39,850 bases of DNA from Candidatus Coprenecus avistercoris (GTDB taxonomy: Bacteria; Bacteroidota; Bacteroidia; Bacteroidales; UBA932), in assembly GCA_018712275.1 (NCBI GenBank), contig DVHI01000082.1, positions 1 to 39,850 of the forward strand, read 5' to 3'. The number at the start of each line of letters is the position of its first letter. The stretch's first letter is position 1. This document shows positions 23,467 through 39,129 of the stretch, one piece after another. The notes beneath the pieces are model-generated. The model was not told where the DNA came from and made no database searches. It was given only the letters and a program-made list of their open reading frames with translations. The translations under genes and the position numbers were made by a program.

Positions 23467-25818
23467 TCATCTGCGCCTCCTTGTGAGAGCGATTATTCCG
23501 GCAGCTGCCGCTACTGCCGCCGCAATCCCGAGAACCAGCCACGGCACCGGACGGTCCTTTTTATCTGCCGCGGCATCCACTTCGGCGAAATAGTCCTCTC
23601 CGAGATACTTCCCCTCAGCTATGAGCTCCAAGGCACGGTCCAGGACGAAATCCTCCTTCGCGGTGAAATATTCCTCGTAGGTGGCGGGCACCGGATAGTC
23701 GGGCATCAGGCCCCTGCCGGCGGGAGTTCTGGGCGTGACGGCCGTGTCGAAGACCTCGCGGACCAAAGGGATGTGGAGGACAATCTTGGAGTTGGGCAGA
23801 CGCACCTCATTGTATTTCAAGGCTGTCATGAAATGATAGCAGGTCTGGGTCTCGCGGCCTACGGTCACGGCCCGGCGGTTGCGCACCAGGACGGACGGGA
23901 AGAGGGAAGCCGCGGAGCAGGAAGTCTCGTCGGTGAGGATGTAGAGACGGCCCCGGTAATTGACGGTCGAGTCCGGATACAGCACCCGGCTGTTCTCGGA
24001 GGGGGCGAAATAGCCTTCCTTGCCCTCGACCGGCTCATAGTCGGGAAAGACGATCTGGTCCGGAGTGTAGTTGAGCGAGTGCCTGAGCGGGCCTCTGGTC
24101 TTGACCCAGGAATAGCCGCCGAGGTCGCGGGTAGGAGCGTTGATGAACATCGACAGCAGCTCGTTGGTAAAGAAGACATCCCCTCCCGGATTGTCCCTGA
24201 GATCCATGACCATGTAGGGCACATCGAGGTGAGCGGCTATCGAGTCGCGGACGGCATCCCTGTCCACCTTGGAGATATCGAATGAGCTCAGGCCGAAATA
24301 CACGGTGGAGTCGTTGAGCATCCGGAAACTGTACGGACAATCCTTGTACCGTAGGAGGTGGCTGTAGTGAGCCATCTCCAGGGAAGGCTGCGGCCAGAAG
24401 CCCGTAGCCCTGCGCGGGGACACCCATCTGTCGCGGTACACCTCACCGTCCGCGAATTCTATTACCGCCTCCTTCTTGCCGCTGCTGCTGTACACATCCC
24501 TGTCATCGTAGTACCAGTTCCAGCCCTGGCTCATCCTATAGTCCCTGAGACTCTCGCTGCGGCCGTCGTATCCATCCACCTTGAACGTCCTGACCTCCTC
24601 TATGATATCTTCGGCAGGCCGGCCGTCTATAGCCGCAATCCTGCGGCCGACATACTTCTCCAGCCCCTTGCCGTTCATCACCCTGGTTACTATGAGGCTG
24701 TCTCCTATCACGCCGGGGAATATATTGGCGACATTCAGTTCACTTGTATTCAGAGCTGTCATGATCCAGGTGTGGCTGTCATGCACCAGTGCGACCGTAC
24801 GTTTCAAGATAAGCCAGAACTCAGTATAGGAAAGGTCCTCCGCCAGGTCCCGGCTGACAGTCAGCGAGTCGAACCGGGCTATCTCCTGAGGAGAGACCAC
24901 ATCGTAAAGCGACGGATATTCGTTATAGATCACGTCCATCAGTGCCCGGAAATCTTCCTGAGCCTGCTCCGCCGTAAGGCTGTCGGGAATAACCAGCGCC
25001 TCCGGCTCGATGAAAGTCGTCTCAAGCCCGAAAGGAGTCATGGGATCCTTTCCGGCATTGTTTTTACCGCTCATGGAAAAGCAGATATGAGGCACATCTA
25101 CTGACGGTTCATAATAAGCCACATAACCTAACGTATCTCCCTTGCGTATCTTCTGCCCGTCCTTGAGCACCATGTCCCCGTTCAGACCCGAGAACCAGAG
25201 CTTGTCCCCGTCAGCAGTGCGTATTCCGAGAGTCATGCTCACGCATCTGTCCGGGACAGCGTACCCTCCCTCAGCCACCACACTGGCTATCTGTTCATTC
25301 CATGTCCGGTCCTCGTCCGTGCGGTATGACTGCATACCTGTCCCCCATTTCACCGCCACCCCGGGACGATGAATCACCCCGTCCACCGGAGCCACCACCG
25401 GAGTCCCCTCAGGCGCACCGATAATCAGATTCCCGAAATTGAGTTCGCCGTCCACATACTGCTGCGGCCGGAAGAGGATATTGTCCCCTGTCTTTGCCCC
25501 GGCTATGGGCCAGAGATAGAGTTGCGGCTGAACTTGAGTCCGGGACTGAGCTGCGTTCTGGGCCTGCTCCTGATGGGACGATTCTAGTGCTGCGTTCTGG
25601 GCCTGCCCCTGACGGGACGATTCTAGAGCTGCGTTCCGAGCCTGCTCCTGACGGGACGATTCTAGTGCTGCATTCTGGGCCTGCCCCTGACGGGACATTG
25701 CAGGACCCGCCTGAGCCACCTGCACAGACAGACCTATCGACATAAAAAATGCGACAACTGCAACCAGAACCATAATCGCAGTTCCCGTAAAACGGCGTAC
25801 ATTACTATTATTTTCCAT
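23467..25818 (-). CDS. Degenerate M23 (LytM-like) domain fused to S41 peptidase, C-terminal TM anchor
   Basis: N-terminal TM, low-complexity repeat, LNFGNLIIGAPEGTPVVAPVDGVIH..DTLGYVAYYEPSVDVPHICFSMSG (M23-like), then S41 region ..YMVMDLRDNPGGDVFFTNELL..LYILTDETSCSAASLFPSVLVRN, C-terminal LVLGIAAAVAAAAGIIALTRRRR. Confidence 0.8.
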   Translation of the reverse strand: MENNSNVRRFTGTAIMVLVAVVAFFMSIGLSVQVAQAGPAMSRQGQAQNAALESSRQEQARNAALESSRQGQAQNAALESSHQEQAQNAAQSRTQVQPQLYLWPIAGAKTGDNILFRPQQYVDGELNFGNLIIGAPEGTPVVAPVDGVIHRPGVAVKWGTGMQSYRTDEDRTWNEQIASVVAEGGYAVPDRCVSMTLGIRTADGDKLWFSGLNGDMVLKDGQKIRKGDTLGYVAYYEPSVDVPHICFSMSGKNNAGKDPMTPFGLETTFIEPEALVIPDSLTAEQAQEDFRALMDVIYNEYPSLYDVVSPQEIARFDSLTVSRDLAEDLSYTEFWLILKRTVALVHDSHTWIMTALNTSELNVANIFPGVIGDSLIVTRVMNGKGLEKYVGRRIAAIDGRPAEDIIEEVRTFKVDGYDGRSESLRDYRMSQGWNWYYDDRDVYSSSGKKEAVIEFADGEVYRDRWVSPRRATGFWPQPSLEMAHYSHLLRYKDCPYSFRMLNDSTVYFGLSSFDISKVDRDAVRDSIAAHLDVPYMVMDLRDNPGGDVFFTNELLSMFINAPTRDLGGYSWVKTRGPLRHSLNYTPDQIVFPDYEPVEGKEGYFAPSENSRVLYPDSTVNYRGRLYILTDETSCSAASLFPSVLVRNRRAVTVGRETQTCYHFMTALKYNEVRLPNSKIVLHIPLVREVFDTAVTPRTPAGRGLMPDYPVPATYEEYFTAKEDFVLDRALELIAEGKYLGEDYFAEVDAAADKKDRPVPWLVLGIAAAVAAAAGIIALTRRRR
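25549..25698 (-). repeat. Tandem ~39-bp (13-aa) repeat inside the S41 protein, about 4 copies
   Basis: Protein SRQGQAQNAALES-SRQEQARNAALES-SRQGQAQNAALES-SHQEQAQNAA directly after the TM segment. Confidence 0.85.
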
Positions 25819-26246
25819 GATCCCCTAATTATTAATTATTTGTTTATTATTTACATTTCCATTATCTGTTTGCGTTGCCTATACTGCCTGCGATGGGCCT
25901 GTGCTGTGCGCGCTGCTGCACTCGTGATGTGCTTATTAAGCTCGCACTTTGCCTGTGCTGCTCTCGTGAAGCATGCACTGTACATCCGTTACATATGTTC
26001 CCGCACTGTGTCCATGGTCGCTCGTGAAGTTTGCGTCACTCAGCATACATGCCACGTGACAAATTTAACAATCTTTTTTCGATAAAGAAAAAAAATCGTT
26101 TTACTTTACCAGGATCCATTCCTGGAAATCCTCCTTAACTCGTCACCGCACCTAGGACAACATCGGATATCATCGCATCTGACAAGTTGGAAGGTGCTTT
26201 TCAGTTAACCTGACTCAAAAAAATAATGGTTGACAGACCGCGCCCA

Positions 26247-26385
26247 CAACGGCACCGAATTGCGGGATTCTCTGCCGTTGCGGAACGGCTCAGCACGGAG
26301 AACTGGCGCTGAACGGCATCTCGAAGGGGGCACAGCGAGACGGGGCGAACACAACGGCACCGAATCGCGGATTTCTCTGCCGTTG
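26247..26385 (-). repeat. Pair of 34-bp palindromic elements (26247-26280, 26352-26385), spaced 105 bp
   Basis: CAACGGCACCGAATTGCGGGATTCTCTGCCGTTG and CAACGGCACCGAATCGCGGATTTCTCTGCCGTTG; 8-bp perfect terminal arms. Confidence 0.85.
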
Positions 26386-26664
26386 CGGAACGGCTCAGCA
26401 TGGAGAACCGGCTCTGAGGCAGTCATCGCCCCGGTCTTCAGTCAGGCTAGTCCGTGCACGACTATCTTCACAAGGTAGTTTTCAGTACTTATCCATTCCA
26501 TCCTACTGCGGTGAGACGGAGCATCTTCATAACCGATAAGCCACCTGCCCAACAATATGCTTGAGGCCAATAATGTCAGAATCAATCTGCCCTTGCAAAT
26601 CTCATAAGGGAATCGCTGACAAAAGATTTTCCTACTTCGAATCGCAAGCCGTAAACTCCTTCGG

Positions 26665-26913
26665 AAGGTGCCGATAAAATGCCACTTTTGTCGGCACCTT
26701 CTGAATGGAAAAATGGATGTTAAGGCTGTCAGAAGTGCATGTGGACGGGGACGCATAGCTGTGTGTGCCGGAAGGTGCCGATGAAATGCCACTTTCGTCG
26801 GCACCTTTTCGGAGGGGGCGTGGAGATATGCCTGTGAGAATGGCCTGCGGACGGGCTCGCACAGTTTCGGGTACCGGAAGGTGACGATGAAACGCCACTT
26901 TCGTCGGCACCTT
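26665..26913. repeat. Three 36-bp hairpin elements (26665-26700, 26771-26806, 26878-26913), spaced 106/107 bp
   Basis: AAGGTGCCGATAAAATGCCACTTTTGTCGGCACCTT; AAGGTGCCGATGAAATGCCACTTTCGTCGGCACCTT; AAGGTGACGATGAAACGCCACTTTCGTCGGCACCTT. Confidence 0.9.
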
Positions 26914-26985
26914 CTGGAAGAAGTGAAAGGGGATGGCAAACGGAAAACGGATCCACAGCACCTATGGAGGCACCGCGGCTATTCC

Positions 26986-27002
26986 ACTCCTTCGGAAGGA
27001 GT
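26986..27002. repeat. Solo 17-bp palindrome ACTCCTTCGGAAGGAGT
   Basis: Perfect dyad apart from central base; same motif at 38194-38210. Confidence 0.8.
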
Positions 27003-27240: not shown

Positions 27241-27338
27241 GGGCAGACAGAATGAGAAGGAGAAGTAGGCACCGGCGAGGATGTTGAGCGGGCAGAGAGA
27301 ATCAGAAGGAGAAGTAGACCCCGGCGAGAATGTTCAGC
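27241..27338 (-). repeat. 49-bp direct duplication covering the 3' end of the beta-barrel gene
   Basis: gggcagacagaatgagaaggagaagtaggcaccggcgaggatgttgagc (27241) versus gggcagagagaatcagaaggagaagtagaccccggcgagaatgttcagc (27290). Confidence 0.85.
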
Positions 27339-29968
27339 GGACGGATACGGTACTCGCAGGAGAACTGCTGGAGGGCGTTGAATATGGAGTAGGCGTAGGT
27401 GCGCTGGTTGAGCAGGTTGCGGGCGGTGAGGCTGAGCTCTACCTCGCCCTTGAGGCGCCAGGCTACGGAAGCGTCGAGCAGGACGGTGTTCTTGGCCTGG
27501 TCGGCAGTGAGCATGGTGTAGTAGTGCTCGGCGGACAGCTTCAGGTCCAGGCTGCGGTGCGGGGAGAGGTTCAGGGAAAGGGTGTGGCTGAAATTGTCCT
27601 TGGACTCGGAGGTGCCGGTGCCGGGCAGGGAGAGAATGTAATGCGAATAGCCGAGTTCGTAGGAGAGGCTCATCCAGCGGGTCAGGCGGCCGTTGAAGGT
27701 CGGGCGCAGGGAAATGGTCTGCGAGAGGTAGGGGGTGCGGACCCCGTCCTGCAGGATGGAGGTGGTGGAAAAATCCATGTAGGACAATGTCACTCCGACC
27801 TTGCCGTTGATGCCGTATATGCCGATGCTGCTGCTCAGGGAGGCGTACCAGCTCTCGCCGCGGCTGGGGGCATACTCCGTGCCGGTGACGATGTAGTCAC
27901 CGAGGAAGTCCTGGGTGGAGGAGGTCTGGAGGATGTTCCAGGAGCGGTTGACGGTACCGTCGATGTAGAACATGTTCACCGGGTCCTTGAAGTTGATGCG
28001 GCCGGTGACGCTGTAGGACTCGTCCTGGGCGGTGTTCAGGGAGCCGGCGGTGAGGTAGCGGTAGTTGCGCAGGATGTAGCCGCTGTAGAAATAGTGAATG
28101 TCCAGGGCGGAGTTGGACGCGCTGCCGGAGACGGTCAGGCTCAGGCGCGGGCCTGGCATGTACTTGACGGAGCCGGAGGCGCGGTAGATGAAATGGTCGG
28201 TGTCCAGGCCCCAGTACCTGGCCCAGCTGACGGGGACGGAGAGACGGGCTTCCCAGCTCTTGGAGTCATACTCCAGAGAAGGGGTGACGTAAGGGCGGAT
28301 GTATGCGGCGGTCAGGTCGTTGCGGAAATTCCCGAAGGCACCGGAGCCGCCCACCCCCTCCAGCCGGCTGTCCAGCCTGCGGACCGAAGCATCGAGGCCG
28401 CCCCGGAGGCCGATGGTCAGGCCGCGGGACACCCGGAAATCCGTCGAGACGTAGGTATCCGTATTGAAGTCCAATATGCCCACGCGCTGCCGCTGGACGC
28501 TGTCCGCACTCCCGTTCCCGCTCCCGTCGCGGAGCACCGTCAGCCGCTGGTCGTACTGCGTGAAATCGTTCTGCGACATCAGGGTCAGGGAGCGGCCGCC
28601 CTTCCGGTGGATGTATCGGAGGTCGTCGCTGACGGTGATGTACGGCAGGCGGGCCGTCTGGGTGTTGGGGTACTGGCCCGTCATAGTCTGGAGGGCGTCC
28701 TGGAACTCCCCTTCTGCCCGGAGCACGTTGCGGAAGAAATATTCGTCGCGGTTGGCCTCCGCCTCCACCCGGGCCTGGACGTTGTGCTGCCTGGTCATGG
28801 CCTCCTCGCTCTCCTCTATGGTGCGCTCGCCGTCCTCGAAATAATAGGTGGTCTCCGAGGAATTGGAGGACTCCAGACGGTCAAATACGTAGGAGGCAGA
28901 GGCATTGAACTTCCAGTCATCGCGGAGTTTCCAGGTATTGGAGGTATTGGCCAGTGCCGAGGTATTGAAGCGCACGCGGTCCGCATCCAGCGGAGCCTCG
29001 CTGGTCCCCACGGAGATGAAGCCGTCCTCTCCCCCGCCGCCGGAACGGTCGTAGATGCTCAGGCCGCTGAGTTCCCCCGAAAGGTCCTCCCCGGTATTGT
29101 TCGTCTTGATATTGTTCACGCTGTTCCACTTGCGGCCAACCCGCATCAGGAAGAGGTTTCCGTCCCAGAGTGCCTGAGGGTCAGAAGTGACACCGCCCGA
29201 GAGAGCCGCCGAGCCTACCCATTTGCCCCGGGCATGGTCCTGCAGCACCAGGTTGATGGCCGGCTTCTCCCCCGAGGTTATGCCCTTGAGGGCCTTGACC
29301 GGCTGATGCTTCTCGATGATCTCGACCTTCTTCACGTCCTGAGCCGAGAGATTCCTGGTAAGCAGCGAGTAACGGCCGCCGAGCAGATCCATGCCCTCCA
29401 CGTAGAGATTGCCGATGGACTCCCCGTTGTAGTAGATGTCCCCGCCCTCGCGCACCTCCACCCCCGGCATCCGCTTCAGCACGTCCGAGATACTCTTGTC
29501 CTGCTGCTCCACGAAACTCTGCACGTTGTACTCCACCGTATCGCCGAACAGATTGACCTTCGGAGCCCGCACCACCACCTCCCTGATATTCAGGGCCTGC
29601 GGCTGCAGTTCCACCTGAATGTTCTGCCAGTCCGTGACGCTATTCCCGTCAGGGACCAAGGCCAATGTCACCGTAGCGTAGCCCAGCATCGACACCCTTA
29701 CCGAATCCCCGGCAGCCGGCATCCCGCTTACCTGCAACTCGAAGCGCCCCTGCACGTCCGTCAGCGCATACTCCGTACCCTCCTGCCCTGCCGGCACATA
29801 CAGCACCACTGCTCCAGCCACCGGCGTGCCTTTCCCGGCTTCCACCACCACGCCGCTTATCCTGCGCTCGTCATCCCCTGCCGCCCACTGCTGCCGGGCA
29901 TATCCATTTGCCGGCAATTCCTCCGCCCTCGACTGATAGTCAAAACTTACCGCACACAATAAAAGCAT
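27302..29968 (-). CDS. Outer membrane beta-barrel protein with carboxypeptidase-regulatory-like and TonB-plug domains (TonB-dependent-receptor-like)
   Basis: RRISGVVVEAGKGTPVAGAVVLYVPAGQEGTEYALTDVQGRFELQVSG, VNLFGDTVEYNVQSFVEQQDKSISDVLKRMPGVEVREGGDIYYNGESIGNLYVEGMDLLGGRYSLL, C-terminal PLNILAGVYFSF. ORF is open to 30598; ATG 29968 is the first Met after the repeat array, so the true start is uncertain. Confidence 0.82.
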   Translation of the reverse strand: MLLLCAVSFDYQSRAEELPANGYARQQWAAGDDERRISGVVVEAGKGTPVAGAVVLYVPAGQEGTEYALTDVQGRFELQVSGMPAAGDSVRVSMLGYATVTLALVPDGNSVTDWQNIQVELQPQALNIREVVVRAPKVNLFGDTVEYNVQSFVEQQDKSISDVLKRMPGVEVREGGDIYYNGESIGNLYVEGMDLLGGRYSLLTRNLSAQDVKKVEIIEKHQPVKALKGITSGEKPAINLVLQDHARGKWVGSAALSGGVTSDPQALWDGNLFLMRVGRKWNSVNNIKTNNTGEDLSGELSGLSIYDRSGGGGEDGFISVGTSEAPLDADRVRFNTSALANTSNTWKLRDDWKFNASASYVFDRLESSNSSETTYYFEDGERTIEESEEAMTRQHNVQARVEAEANRDEYFFRNVLRAEGEFQDALQTMTGQYPNTQTARLPYITVSDDLRYIHRKGGRSLTLMSQNDFTQYDQRLTVLRDGSGNGSADSVQRQRVGILDFNTDTYVSTDFRVSRGLTIGLRGGLDASVRRLDSRLEGVGGSGAFGNFRNDLTAAYIRPYVTPSLEYDSKSWEARLSVPVSWARYWGLDTDHFIYRASGSVKYMPGPRLSLTVSGSASNSALDIHYFYSGYILRNYRYLTAGSLNTAQDESYSVTGRINFKDPVNMFYIDGTVNRSWNILQTSSTQDFLGDYIVTGTEYAPSRGESWYASLSSSIGIYGINGKVGVTLSYMDFSTTSILQDGVRTPYLSQTISLRPTFNGRLTRWMSLSYELGYSHYILSLPGTGTSESKDNFSHTLSLNLSPHRSLDLKLSAEHYYTMLTADQAKNTVLLDASVAWRLKGEVELSLTARNLLNQRTYAYSIFNALQQFSCEYRIRPLNILAGVYFSF

Positions 29969-30112
29969 CCCGACAACGGCCGCTGCCCTGACCCTAATAC
30001 CCGCTGCCCTCCGGCATTGCTTCCAGCCTGTCCGCCGGTCTGTCCGCCGAAGCACCCGCCAACCCACTTCCTGATTCACCTTCTGGTCCTCTTTCCAGTC
30101 CACCTTCTGTTC

Positions 30113-30516
30113 CACCTTCCGAAGGCGGGCGTTTTCCTGCGTTTTCCGCACACCTTCCGAAGGTGAGCAGATGCTGCACCGCCACGAGAGACGCCTGTCA
30201 CCGCATTTCTCCGTCCACCATACCCTTTCCACCTTCCGAAGGCGGGCATTTTCCTGCGTTTTCCGCACACCTTCCGAAGGTGAGCAGATGCTGCACCGCC
30301 ACGAGAGACGCCTGTCGCCGCATTTCCCCGTCCACCATACCTTTCCCACCTTCCGAAGGCGGGCGTTTTTCCGCGTTTTCTGCCCACCTTCCGAAGGTGG
30401 GCAAATGCAGCACCGCCACGAGAGACGCCTCTCGCCGCATTTTTCCGTCCGCCGTACCTTTCCCACCTTCCGAAGGCGGGCATTTTCCTGCGTTTTCCGC
30501 ACACCTTCCGAAGGTG
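30113..30516 (-). repeat. 117-bp-period array of CACCTTCCGAAGGTG/CACCTTCCGAAGGCG palindromes, 8 copies
   Basis: Palindromes start at 30113, 30151, 30230, 30268, 30347, 30385, 30464, 30502 (spacing 38/79 alternating). Confidence 0.93.
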
Positions 30517-30601
30517 AGCAAGGTCTGCAAACGGAGAATTCAGAAATATTGTCAGATAAATGCATCATATCGTTCATTACGTCTCGCAACTCGACCATTA
30601 C

Positions 30602-31519
30602 CTATTCAAATATCTCCTGAAACTCATACCTCAGCGCATTGACCAGCTTCGGGTCATTGGGATCCACCTCCTTGCCCTCCGAAGTGGTGAGCCGGATGCT
30701 CGTCACGTCCATTCCGGCGGTAACGAAGCCGATCGGATCCTCGATATAACGGCGCAGGGTGCGGTAGTACTTGCGCAGATCGGTGCGGACATACTGCTCG
30801 TCCGGCATCATCACCGGCAGACCGGTCACCTGACGGATACCCGTGAGCAGATACACATACTGACAATCAGTATCGTACACGTGCATCACCAGCCCGGGCA
30901 GACCGCAGAACTTCCAGGGCCCTTCGGACAGCGGCAGCTCAGGCGCGAACCAGGCCACATAGTCCCGGCCCCGGAATGAGCATTCCGCCCGCCGCACCCG
31001 GTACCCCAGCAGTTCCTTCCACTCGTCAGTCACGACCCAGCCGAAATCCGGCACGGCCTCCACCACCTCGAACCAGTCCAGCATCTTGTCTATCATCGTC
31101 ATCCGCCCGGTCTTAGGCCAGTTCTTGAACAGCTGCATGCTTGTGCCGCCCTTCACGTCCCCGACCGAGGAAAAATCATTAGTTCCGGACTGCACCAGCG
31201 AGGTTATAAGCGAATCGCGGTAATACTGGCTGTAGCTGTAGAACCGCGATATCCCGTCCGGGCCGCCGCACTGCAGCAGCATCACGTCCTCGGCGATATC
31301 GGTACTGTCGCCCGAGAGCAGGGTCCCCTCCGGAGTCATCCGCGTCCCCGAGGTCGTGTCCTGCAGCCAGGCATAGCGGTATGTGCACTCTATCAAGGCC
31401 GTACCAATCCGCTCATAGCCCTGTGTCTCCTCCGAGAAAATGGTCACGGTGTTCTGTCCGGCTGCGGCAGGCGGGAACAATATCAGCATCCAGGCCACGA
31501 CAGCGACTGTATTTACCAT
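30602..31519 (-). CDS. GLPGLI family protein
   Basis: ..EAVPDFGWVVTDEWKELLGYRVRRAECSFRGRDYVAWFAPELPLSEGPWKFCGLPGLVMHVYDTDCQYVYLLTGI. ORF open to 31753; ATG 31519 gives a signal peptide MVNTVAVVAWMLILFPPAAAGQ, but ATG 31753 gives MRKYIVDFIFAFSGAL. Confidence 0.85.
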   Translation of the reverse strand: MVNTVAVVAWMLILFPPAAAGQNTVTIFSEETQGYERIGTALIECTYRYAWLQDTTSGTRMTPEGTLLSGDSTDIAEDVMLLQCGGPDGISRFYSYSQYYRDSLITSLVQSGTNDFSSVGDVKGGTSMQLFKNWPKTGRMTMIDKMLDWFEVVEAVPDFGWVVTDEWKELLGYRVRRAECSFRGRDYVAWFAPELPLSEGPWKFCGLPGLVMHVYDTDCQYVYLLTGIRQVTGLPVMMPDEQYVRTDLRKYYRTLRRYIEDPIGFVTAGMDVTSIRLTTSEGKEVDPNDPKLVNALRYEFQEIFE

Positions 31520-31562
31520 TCCCAGGGTCCTATAGCGCTCACCCCCGCTGCCACCCATACCG

Positions 31563-31701
31563 CAACGGCACCATTTCCCGCGATTCGCTGCCGTTGTGGT
31601 AGAGCGGGATGCAAAGTATCGCGCATACAGAGCCTGTAGAGAGGCCACCGCAGAAACACCCATGCCGCAACGGCACCTTTTCCCGCGATTCGCTGCCGTT
31701 G
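31563..31701 (-). repeat. Second pair of 34-bp palindromes (31563-31596, 31668-31701), spaced 105 bp
   Basis: CAACGGCACCATTTCCCGCGATTCGCTGCCGTTG and CAACGGCACCTTTTCCCGCGATTCGCTGCCGTTG; same family and spacing as 26247-26385. Confidence 0.88.
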
Positions 31702-31764
31702 TGGAAAGAGCACCGGAAAATGCGAAGATGAAATCAACGATATATTTTCTCATAAACTGTGACT

Positions 31765-32691
31765 TTAAAGTATCTCCTGAAAATCAAACTTGAGCTTGAA
31801 CGGATCGCTCCCGTCCGCCGGCTTTGAGACCCGCACCGAGGAGATGGCCGAAACATCGACCTCGGAGATTATCAGCATCGGATTCTCATTGTAGCGGCGC
31901 AGGGTGCGCAGGTACTTCTCCACATCGGTCCGGATATACTGCGCGTCAGGCATTTCCACCCGTATACCGCTGTCCGCCACCGACAGCCCCTGCAGCACGT
32001 AATGGTACTGCAGCCGGGTATCGTACACCTCCAGAATCAGTCCGGGCAGACCGCAGAACTTCCAAGGTCCCTCGGACAACGGCAGTTCCGGAGCGAACCA
32101 TGCCACATAGTCCCTGCCACGGAACGAGCACTCCGCCCGCCGCACCCGATATCCCAGCACCTCCTTCCATTCGTCCAGCACCCTCCAGCCGAAGTCCGGT
32201 ACCGCCTCCTCCATCAGATAGTTCTCCGTGCCAATGATATCGGTCGAAGTCATCCGCCCCGGCTCCGGGAAATTCTTGTACACGGTAAATGCCGTACCAG
32301 CCGGCAGCGACCATACATCCAGCGCCGCCCCGCCGCCTCCGTCCGCAGCCAGCATCAGCGAATCCAGGTAGAACCGGTCATAGCTGTAGAACCGCGACAC
32401 CCCGGAAGGCCCGCCGCACTGCAGCAGCATCATTCCCCGCTCCACATCCGCACTGTCTCCGGAGACCAGCCCGCCGTCCGCAGACATCCGCGCAGTCGTA
32501 TCCCGCAGCCAGGAATATCCGTAGCGGTACTCGATCCGTGCAGTCCCTATACTGTCCATCCGGTAAGCCGCCGGCTTGAACATCACCTGTATCGACTGGC
32601 ACCTGCCGTCTGTGGGCGAAAATACCATCGGCAGCAGGCCTCCGAGAGACCATGCCGCAGCATAAAAGATTACAAGCGAGATTTTTCTCAT
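31765..32691 (-). CDS. GLPGLI family protein (paralog)
   Basis: Signal peptide MRKISLVIFYAAAWSLGGLLPMVFS; shared block EAVPDFGWRVLDEWKEVLGYRVRRAECSFRGRDYVAWFAPELPLSEGPWKFCGLPGLILEVYD. Confidence 0.9.
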   Translation of the reverse strand: MRKISLVIFYAAAWSLGGLLPMVFSPTDGRCQSIQVMFKPAAYRMDSIGTARIEYRYGYSWLRDTTARMSADGGLVSGDSADVERGMMLLQCGGPSGVSRFYSYDRFYLDSLMLAADGGGGAALDVWSLPAGTAFTVYKNFPEPGRMTSTDIIGTENYLMEEAVPDFGWRVLDEWKEVLGYRVRRAECSFRGRDYVAWFAPELPLSEGPWKFCGLPGLILEVYDTRLQYHYVLQGLSVADSGIRVEMPDAQYIRTDVEKYLRTLRRYNENPMLIISEVDVSAISSVRVSKPADGSDPFKLKFDFQEIL

Positions 32692-32723
32692 ATCATCATT
32701 CGGTTTTGATTGTTTTCCGACAG

Positions 32724-32731
32724 CAAAATTA
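32724..32731 (-). promoter_or_regulatory. Putative -7 box TAATTTTG for the GLPGLI operon
   Basis: TAnnTTTG on the minus strand, 33 nt upstream of the ATG at 32691. Confidence 0.45.
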
Positions 32732-32766
32732 CCCTACGCACGCCATCCCGAACGTCAACAGATGCC

Positions 32767-32790
32767 TAACAAATGTTAACAACTCTTAAC
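32767..32790. promoter_or_regulatory. Three TAAC direct repeats with 10-bp period
   Basis: TAACAAATGTTAACAACTCTTAAC: TAAC at 32767, 32777, 32787. Confidence 0.5.
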
Positions 32791-32810
32791 CCCCCGGGAA
32801 GGCATCTGCA

Positions 32811-33179
32811 CACCTTCGGAAGGTGGGACGGGCACAATGTAGGGAGAAACGCAGCTACAGCAGGCTCTCGTGGGGGTTCCGATTCTGCGCACCTTCGGAA
32901 GGTGAGATGAAAACGCGGGGAAATTGCACACCTTCGGAAGGTGGAACGGGCACAATGTAGGGAGAAACGCGGCTACAGCAGGCTCTCGTGGGGGTTCCGA
33001 TTCTGCGCACCTTCGGAAGGTGGGACGGAAATGCGGAAAAACAGCACACCTTCGGAAGGTGGGACGGGCACAATGTAGGGAGAAACGCAGCTACAGCAGG
33101 CTCTCGTGGGGGTTCCGATTCTGCGCACCTTCGGAAGGTGAGGCGAAAATGCGGCAAAACAGCACACCTTCGGAAGGTG
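32811..33179 (+). repeat. 118-bp-period array of CACCTTCGGAAGGTG palindromes, 7 copies (3 units plus 1)
   Basis: Palindromes start at 32811, 32890, 32929, 33008, 33047, 33126, 33165 (spacing 79/39 alternating). Confidence 0.95.
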
Positions 33180-33226
33180 TGCAGGTTAACGAATGTTAAT
33201 TTCTGCTGATGTCCGGAAACCATGCG

Positions 33227-33234
33227 TATATTTG
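33227..33234 (+). promoter_or_regulatory. Putative -7 box TATATTTG for kinase/regulator operon
   Basis: TAnnTTTG, 57 nt upstream of the ATG at 33291; argues against the ORF-track start at 33222. Confidence 0.5.
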
Positions 33235-33290
33235 CAGTGCGGCACGTACCACGTACAACGTATCGCCCCACATACACAAACCACCGGACC

Positions 33291-34826
33291 ATGAAGACCA
33301 CACAGAGCAGACACACATTCATCCTCATCGGCACAGCCGTCGGAGCGGCCCTCGTCGCAGCCATCACCCTTACGATGGTGTGGCTCGTGGACTCGTACCG
33401 CGACCGGCAGCGGGAATTCGAGGGCAGGATAAACTCCGCCCTGGACGAGGCCGTCGCCGCCGAGAGGGAGGCCCGCACGACAGAGAAGAGGAGCCTCATC
33501 CTGCTCGAGACCGACACCACGGACGGATTCGACATTTTCAAGGACGTGATCGAGAACATACCGGTCGAAGAGATTGCCTCCATCAAGGTCTACAAAAGCG
33601 GGACAACCTACACCGACGCCATCCGCCGTATCATGACCACCGTCCCCGACTCCGACAGCCTGAGCGGTTTCCACACCTCCAACTTCCTGCTGACATTCTA
33701 CGCCATGCTGCGGTACAAGGACATATCCCGGCCCTGCTCTGTCACAGTCGGGACAGAAGCCATAGACACTGCCGGCATAAACATATCGATGGATTCTCTG
33801 ATGCATTTTCTCGAAGGATTCGGCCCGGACATAAAAATCACCGGATCTTTCACCGTCACGCCTGACAGGGACTCAGTGTCAAGAATCCTGTACTCCGACA
33901 GCACAGTCATAGACCGGCCGCTCACATTTACCCGCACGATACTCATCGGTGACTCCACGCCCCGGATAGTCTGCACCGTACAGATGACCGACCCCTCCCG
34001 GGACTTCCTACGGGAAATGGCAGGCCTCATCGCCAGCATCCTCGCCATCACCGCCATCCTCTGCTTCAGTTACATCTACCTGCTGCACACCGTATTCCGC
34101 CAGAAGACCCTAAGCGAGATGCGCCGCGACCTGACCCACAACATCACCCACGAGCTCAAGACCCCGATAGCCACCGCCTCCGCCGCCAGCGAGGCCCTGC
34201 TCGACTATTCAGCCGACGAGGACCCCGAACGCCGCCGCCGCTACCTGGAGATCATCCGCGACCAGCTCGGAGCACTCTCCGCAATGGTCGGCCGCATCCT
34301 CGACATCTCCCTCCAGGAACGGGACGACCTGGCATTGACCCCCTCCCACTGTGACTTGCAAGAAATGCTCCACCGCCTATGCACCGAACTGACCGTCAGC
34401 ACCGCCGGCCGCGCCCGCATCACCGAGGACTACCCCGAAGGCCCCGCACCAGCCATCACCGCCGACACCTTCCACCTCTCCGCCGCCATCTCCAACATCC
34501 TGGACAATGCGGTCAAATACTCCACCGCCACCCCCGAAATCACCGTCCGCCTCCGGAGAGCAGCCGCCGACGGCAGCATCCGCATCGAGGTGCAGGACAA
34601 CGGCATAGGCATCCCCGCCTCCCAGCGCCGCCGCATCTTCGAGAAATACTACCGCATCCCCACCGGGGACGTACAGAATGTCAGGGGCTTCGGCATCGGC
34701 CTCTACTACAGCCGCCTCGTGGTGGAAAAGCACGGTGGGACCATCAGCGTCAGTCCCGCTCCGGGCGGCGGCTCGATATTCACCCTCACTCTCAAAGGCA
34801 TTCAGGACAATGGAAAACGCGGATAA
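33291..34826 (+). CDS. Sensor histidine kinase (HisKA/HATPase_c)
   Basis: Two TMs; RRDLTHNITHELKTPIATASAASEALLDY (H-box), ISNILDNAVKYS (N), DNGIGIPASQRRRIFEKYYRIPTGDVQNVRGFGIGLYYSRLVVEKHGG. Confidence 0.93.
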   Translation: MKTTQSRHTFILIGTAVGAALVAAITLTMVWLVDSYRDRQREFEGRINSALDEAVAAEREARTTEKRSLILLETDTTDGFDIFKDVIENIPVEEIASIKVYKSGTTYTDAIRRIMTTVPDSDSLSGFHTSNFLLTFYAMLRYKDISRPCSVTVGTEAIDTAGINISMDSLMHFLEGFGPDIKITGSFTVTPDRDSVSRILYSDSTVIDRPLTFTRTILIGDSTPRIVCTVQMTDPSRDFLREMAGLIASILAITAILCFSYIYLLHTVFRQKTLSEMRRDLTHNITHELKTPIATASAASEALLDYSADEDPERRRRYLEIIRDQLGALSAMVGRILDISLQERDDLALTPSHCDLQEMLHRLCTELTVSTAGRARITEDYPEGPAPAITADTFHLSAAISNILDNAVKYSTATPEITVRLRRAAADGSIRIEVQDNGIGIPASQRRRIFEKYYRIPTGDVQNVRGFGIGLYYSRLVVEKHGGTISVSPAPGGGSIFTLTLKGIQDNGKRG

Positions 34827-38101: not shown

Positions 38102-38193
38102 GCCTGCCCCACCCCCTTCCACCACATTCCTCCATACCCCCTTCCGTCCTTTCCACTCCTTCAGAAAGAGTACGGTTTGCCTGCTTTTCAGCT

Positions 38194-38210
38194 ACTCCTT
38201 CCGAAGGAGT
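38194..38210. repeat. 17-bp palindrome ACTCCTTCCGAAGGAGT (imperfect copy at 38155-38171)
   Basis: Reverse complement of the copy at 26986-27002; lies 3 nt from the candidate operator at 38214. Confidence 0.8.
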
Positions 38211-39059: not shown

Positions 39060-39129
39060 ATTTCCACACACGAAATCCTCCTTCTATGTCCCCGCCCACC
39101 TTCCGAAGGTTGGCAGAATCATGAGTAAA

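Follow-up and report, generated by a model that had tools for sequence, protein, structure and literature searches.

REP/BIME elements and REPINs with their RAYT transposases are short extragenic hairpin repeats with short and long linkers that form multi-unit clusters, as in E. coli BIME-2, Pseudomonas and the REPtrons of Stenotrophomonas. In a REPtron a single-copy HUH/Y1 gene is flanked by its own repeats, and several such pairs exist in parallel within a genus. How a RAYT recognizes its repeats and where new REP families come from have yet to be settled, and most work on both has dealt with REPs of Proteobacteria that have a GTAG tag and a short loop. In the dRS3 arrays of Neisseria, palindromes alternate with longer spacers. 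The dRS3 element is filed as CGTC-1, and CGTC repeats are without a reported dedicated transposase (PMC3733652). The enzymes of E. coli and of Stenotrophomonas/Marinomonas read bases of the stem bulge or of the loop (PMC8266576). A RAYT subclass of Bacteroidetes, 2.6/group 5, with a median length of 179 aa and the motif YIH[QN]NP, is flanked by "atypical secondary structures" that have copies elsewhere in the genome (PMC6006769). Among the papers listed for palindromic repeats or transposases of Coprenecus, none names this genus.

The window analysed here (39,850 nt) is an entire contig, C64, of Candidatus Coprenecus avistercoris, a fragmented metagenome-assembled genome (MAG) of 108 contigs and 2.0 Mb that is 86% complete. 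Gene calling was mechanical, the relatives compared are likewise fragmented MAGs, and the searches were run by pattern and by locus. The window carries two arrays of one palindrome family. With a probability of roughly 0.8, we regard them as repeats that are not autonomous themselves and belong to a REP/RAYT system of Bacteroidales, which is best read as a new variant without the GTAG tag.

Structure of the repeat unit

The unit, P-s-P, is 53–54 nt long and consists of a palindrome P (CACCTTCGGAAGGTG), a spacer of 23–24 nt and a second P. Array 1 (30113..30516, minus strand) contains four such hairpin units, in minus-strand order at 30464–30516, 30347–30399, 30230–30282 and 30113–30165, with three linkers of 64 nt between them. 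Its eight palindromes follow at steps of 38, 79, 38, 79, 38, 79 and 38 nt, and all have C at the centre on the plus strand. Array 2 (32811..33179, plus strand) begins with a lone P (32811–32825), followed three times by a linker and a unit (32890–32943, 33008–33061 and 33126–33179, all plus). Its seven palindromes are spaced by 79, 39, 79, 39, 79 and 39 nt, with G at every centre. These coordinates, palindromes and spacings reproduce those of the initial annotation in full, and its GAAAACGC-GG-GAAA motif in the short spacer is correct. The 38/79-nt spacings that it took as the pattern of the palindromes are real, but the natural unit is the P-s-P followed by a linker of about 64 nt, and not the bare palindrome. 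When all arrays of the genome are read in one orientation, P-s-P is the minimal element, and it stands alone at several loci.

Once reverse-complemented, array 1 matches array 2 by 72–77% across 117–137 nt. The two arrays are therefore homologous units in opposite orientation, in agreement with the earlier description of homologous composite, REP-like elements. The 2.0-Mb genome contains 73 copies of the core palindrome ACCTTCNGAAGGT and 0 of the reversed control pattern, a frequency far above chance. A degenerate solo P (AACCTTCGGAAGGTG; 39097..39111, minus) lies near the contig end.

Folded as single-stranded DNA, P-s-P gives one hairpin of 7 bp, a mismatch and another 7 bp, closed by the large loop of 23–24 nt, with a z of −4.1 to −6.3 against dinucleotide shuffles. 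The two P centres within a unit are mostly equal (GG 101, CC 20 and GC/CG 10 among 136 distinct units), so that a central G.G or C.C mismatch results when the two P pair. Because P is self-complementary, compensatory changes between the two arms are uninformative. The core of the loop in the 136 units is GAAAAYGCGGGRAA. The loop consensus was built on 115 distinct 24-nt loops, of which AGATGAAAACGCGGGGAAATTGCA (32905..32928, plus) is an example with this core.

The linkers that join the units are about 64 nt long (range 63–66 nt). An example of 64 nt at 32944..33007 (plus) is unstructured and array-specific, and folding of the linker revealed no structure (z = +1.84). Linker identity is 91% within an array, 61% between arrays (50% for shuffled sequences) and 85–92% between orthologous arrays of sister species, showing that homogenization acts within arrays. 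High identity within arrays, low identity between them and the lack of a fold are what tandem duplication and homogenization are expected to produce. These values give no support to the proposal of a functional, conserved long spacer. Between linkers of different repeat families, similarity exceeds that of shuffled sequences by only about one standard deviation, and the linker was rejected as an RNA or conserved element. An Rfam search gave no match.

The P-s-P hairpin is similar to the E. coli REP, with its bulge, in having an unpaired position within the stem (PMC8266576). The P family combines a mismatch at the stem centre with conservation of the loop core, to be compared with the features read by the enzymes in that study. 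Other features in common with REP/BIME elements and REPINs are the short hairpins outside genes, the two kinds of linker, the multi-unit clusters, a single-copy HUH/Y1 gene amid its own repeats and several parallel pairs in a genus. The hairpins of this genus differ from REP/BIME elements in the lack of the GT[AG]G tag and in a loop of about 14–26 nt with a conserved core in place of a short loop; those of the P family also have arms that are themselves palindromes. The units of one array are all in one orientation instead of alternating, and the loop cores of successive units point the same way. A 5′ GTAG/GTGG tag within 6 nt of the hairpin foot was found in 0 of 97 units on either strand, and a CGTC tag in only 12 of 97 on one strand. 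Both tags were rejected for the P family on these counts. The clustering of palindromes in large intergenic arrays is shared with dRS3 of Neisseria (PMC3733652), from which the P family is set apart by the scarcity of the CGTC tag and by a probable dedicated transposase.

Distribution and gene context

The host genome, of the Candidatus Coprenecus type (Bacteroidales), contains 69 exact P copies, which form intergenic arrays. Judged by DNA similarity, more than 20 contigs carry members of the family, in several cases at the end of a contig. Within the genus the exact P count per genome ranges from 0 to 114, and the exact P-s-P pattern is present in 11 of 19 members, the host included, and in 0 of the 41 genomes searched outside the genus. 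Counting copies in this genome and its relatives, a check suggested in the initial annotation, places the family genome-wide. Ordinary tandem or CRISPR-like arrays grown by slippage, with no link to a transposase, would explain the uniformity within arrays and the variation in copy number. Such an origin was already disfavoured and is highly improbable, given the dispersal on more than 20 contigs, the confinement, in the set of relatives searched, to a single genus, and a specific transposase flanked by the same family (see below). The spacers recur within an array and are not unique, as those of CRISPR type would be.

Arrays 1 and 2 are present at the same places in the sister species G008, G013 and G016, with different unit numbers. 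The sensor histidine kinase gene downstream of array 2 (HisKA + HATPase_c; 33222..34826, plus) served as the syntenic anchor for locating the locus in relatives. At the array-2 locus the copy number goes from 10 down to 1 P; G002 retains the single P, and G006 has no P and retains the kinase, which is 80% identical. G006 does not show a clean empty site at the junction, so no target duplication is defined. As the window arrays share their loci and locus-specific sequence with sister species, the recent change looks like a change of copy number in place rather than jumping.

Array 1 occupies the gap separating two co-directional minus-strand genes, and array 2 a divergent gene gap. The two arrays do have the same orientation relative to the downstream gene, as had been pointed out, but the meaning attached to this finds no support in a wider count. 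Using a simple hexamer-based gene call, with double-family entries removed by hand, 22 elements were oriented. All 22 are intergenic, every gene-pair context occurs (−− 7, ++ 5, −+ 5 and +− 5), and the downstream gene is on the loop strand in 12, a ratio of 12:10 without orientation bias. The hypothesis of an orientation effect or a leader was rejected on these grounds. It could still be argued that the arrays, whatever their origin, have been co-opted to regulate the outer-membrane-protein gene and the kinase, either as leaders or by binding protein at multiple sites, since both lie upstream of a gene start and their positions are kept in three sister species. The balanced orientation, the linkers without a fold or Rfam match, the reduction to a single P in G002 and the retention of the kinase without array 2 in G006 make this unlikely. 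The arrays near the two genes are best explained as placements of the family and not as gene-specific control devices. Nothing marks the two window arrays out as special regulators.

An ORF of 1098 aa (27302–30598, minus) runs through array 1 and is probably spurious. The array keeps the frame open, its period of 117 nt being divisible by 3. Coding statistics put the gene start near 29917, and array 1 was rejected as a coding repeat. Automatic annotation would give the outer-membrane protein a false repetitive N-terminus from array 1. Elsewhere in the window, a 39-bp tandem repeat (GCTGCGTTCTGGGCCTGCCCCTGACGGGACGATTCTAGT, about 3.8 copies) is found at 25548–25712, at the start of an M23/S41 peptidase-like gene, and two tandem paralogous Porph_ging (PF09697) genes at 30602–31753 and 31765–32691 have DNA segments that are 70–83% identical.

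The RAYT-A gene

No RAYT is present inside the window, as was correctly stated before. The idea that a RAYT-type gene matters is supported. The implied lack of a linked RAYT is not, since four sister species have a P-flanked gene close to the chromosomal position of the window. This gene, RAYT-A, encodes a divergent RAYT-like HUH/Y1 transposase of 315–317 aa, and its members (L105, L094, L092 and L178) are 94–95% identical. It is present in one copy per genome in G008, G011, G013 and G016 and is flanked by inverted P arrays in all four, with exact P copies on the 5′ and 3′ side numbering 4 and 6 in G016, 3 and 6 in G013, 4 and 4 in G011, and 5 and 0 in G008. In the three two-sided cases the first P starts 38 nt after the RAYT-A coding frame; in G008 a degenerate P lies 29 nt past the gene. 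Y1-transposase matches exist in 15 of the 19 genus genomes, and among more than 50 RAYT-like ORFs collected, P arrays adjoin only the RAYT-A clade. Candidatus Coprenecus species (Bacteroidales; classed by NCBI under Rikenellaceae) are among the named records for the RAYT loci that match best.

On contigs that contain both genes, RAYT-A follows 4–11 kb after the window's kinase. The position matching the solo P at 39097..39111 is a few kb short of the P-RAYT locus in relatives, and the window aligns continuously in G002 up to 4 kb short of the RAYT. In the host genome the first 42 codons of RAYT-A are found at the left end of contig C36 (C36:2–127), 100% identical to G013, with a P array (C36:1317–1606) 1.2 kb upstream of this N-terminus. 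The rest of the gene was not found in the host's 86% complete assembly of 108 contigs. The host's own full-length RAYT-like genes on C96 and C79 were rejected as partners, with no P array within 2.5 kb; one stray degenerate P lies near the C79 gene. L091 (G000:C79), a RAYT-like gene different from RAYT-A, has direct repeats of about 170 bp starting AACGAAAAAGAATCGG on both sides, possibly another repeat system.

RAYT-A matches the family NF047646 (REP-associated tyrosine transposase) over residues 6–132 only (E 3.7e-12). The score of 46.3 bits is below the 80-bit cut-off, which makes RAYT-A a divergent relative and not the NF047646 equivalog. Residues H55 and H57 of the HUH motif and Y112 and N116 of the single-tyrosine (Y..NP) motif are invariant in the alignment. 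The predicted structure has a mean pLDDT of 66, with a good N-terminal domain and low confidence for residues 132–209. The best PDB match of the model is 4er8, E. coli TnpA-REP bound to a REP hairpin (E 2.4e-5), followed by the transposases of IS608 and then ISDra2. The likeness to IS200/IS605 elements thus lies in the predicted Y1/HUH fold and presumed hairpin recognition; unlike them, RAYT-A has one copy in each genome and lacks the look of an insertion sequence that spreads by itself. A search for carriage on phages returned a single partial match of 31% identity. RAYT-A shares with subclass 2.6/group 5 the Bacteroidetes host and the flanking secondary structures (PMC6006769), and it is set apart from that group's published length and motif by its 315–317 aa and its YVLRNP. 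A C-terminal extension of about 180 residues distinguishes it from the RAYTs of REPtrons.

P is abundant in the five genomes with RAYT-A (47–114 copies) and scarce in 12 others (0–8). The exceptions speak against the REP/RAYT reading: G004 has 18 P with no RAYT-A found, and G002 keeps 60 P although the RAYT at its locus is of another, ACTCC type. Against the same reading stand the copy-number change in place at the array-2 locus, the missing GTAG/GTGG tag, the NF047646 score below cut-off, the incomplete RAYT-A gene of the host, and the many RAYT-like ORFs with no repeat family at their side (see below).

Parallel enzyme-repeat pairs and a natural mosaic

A de novo hairpin scan and a count table of RAYT flanks, covering seven repeat families, identified six further families, with the stems ACTCC, GGTGCCG, AACGGCA, GTGTAC, GGTGAACC and GGAAAGTG, and each of them adjoins a RAYT subclade of its own. 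Each flanked RAYT matches one stem family only, without cross-matches. Against shuffles, the loops of five of the six resemble the core of the P family with z of 3.8–21.7; for GGTGCCG, z is 2.0. Most RAYT-like ORFs in the genus, chiefly of other clades, adjoin none of the seven families. One such clade (L090, L158, L159 and L162) has an upstream TTTACAGACT...AGTCTGTAAA hairpin. In Merdivivens and Muribaculum, related genes are flanked by similar hairpins.

Three of the six families also occur inside the window. The second family, with the stem GGTGCCG...CGGCACC, forms a tandem array at 26662..26916 with a period of about 106; its cognate RAYT is L163/L164/L168 of sister species. The third, with CCGCAACGGCA...TGCCGTTGTGG hairpins at 31560–31599 and 31665–31704 (31560..31704, plus, period 105) and a further copy at 26244–26283, has the cognate RAYT L195/L196 and 10–94 matches in P-rich genomes, both strands counted. 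The fourth is represented by an ACTCC-type hairpin at 38155..38210 (minus) and a solo ACTCCTTCGGAAGGAGT at 26986–27002; its cognate RAYT is that of G002.

The G002 gene, located at the RAYT-A locus, is a mosaic. Its residues 1–100 are 93–96% identical to RAYT-A and its residues 135–317 only 44–45%, and the DNA identity falls sharply after about nucleotide 250–350 of the gene. The C-terminus is closer to that of the ACTCC-flanked G006 gene at the same locus, with 77% identity over residues 135–195. ACTCC repeats are present in both flanks of the G002 gene. The G006 gene (L194, G006:C3, 4053–4559) is a degenerate remnant with an open frame of 169 aa, yet G006 holds 49 ACTCC copies. The simplest reading of the G002 locus is that the C-terminal module was replaced together with the flanking repeats. 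The RAYT C-terminus may then be the reader of the stem, a suggestion that comes mainly from this one natural mosaic.

The association could be turned around: the palindromes would attract insertions, and the RAYT gene would only be located among clustered repeats on which it does not act. In other bacteria, REPs are reported targets of insertion sequences (PMC1525189), and G002 has kept P copies next to a RAYT of a different type. A mere landing site would hardly account for the one-to-one pairing of RAYT subclade and stem family, for inverted repeats that often lie on both sides of the gene, or for a locus where the stem family changes along with the protein C-terminus, and we consider this explanation very unlikely.

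Under the REP/RAYT reading the P family would be mobile. The conserved N-terminal HUH domain would handle the common loop core and cut single-stranded DNA, and the C-terminal extension would recognize the family-specific stem. RAYT-A may have copied or moved hairpin units into new intergenic sites, after which the arrays could have been lengthened, shortened and homogenized via recombination between units. A wider model, to which we give an even chance, supposes a modular build of the RAYTs of Bacteroidales: their conserved HUH domain would act on a common loop core, an exchangeable C-terminal module would read the stem, and recombinational swaps of the module with its flanking repeats would found new REP families, with at least seven enzyme-repeat pairs in one genus.

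With seven parallel pairs that differ in the stem and largely agree in the loop core, and with a natural chimera, exchanges of the two halves of the protein and of the two parts of the hairpin offer a way to map specificity. The REP/RAYT reading would also explain where one class of intergenic repeats in Bacteroidales comes from, a class at which metagenome assemblies break.
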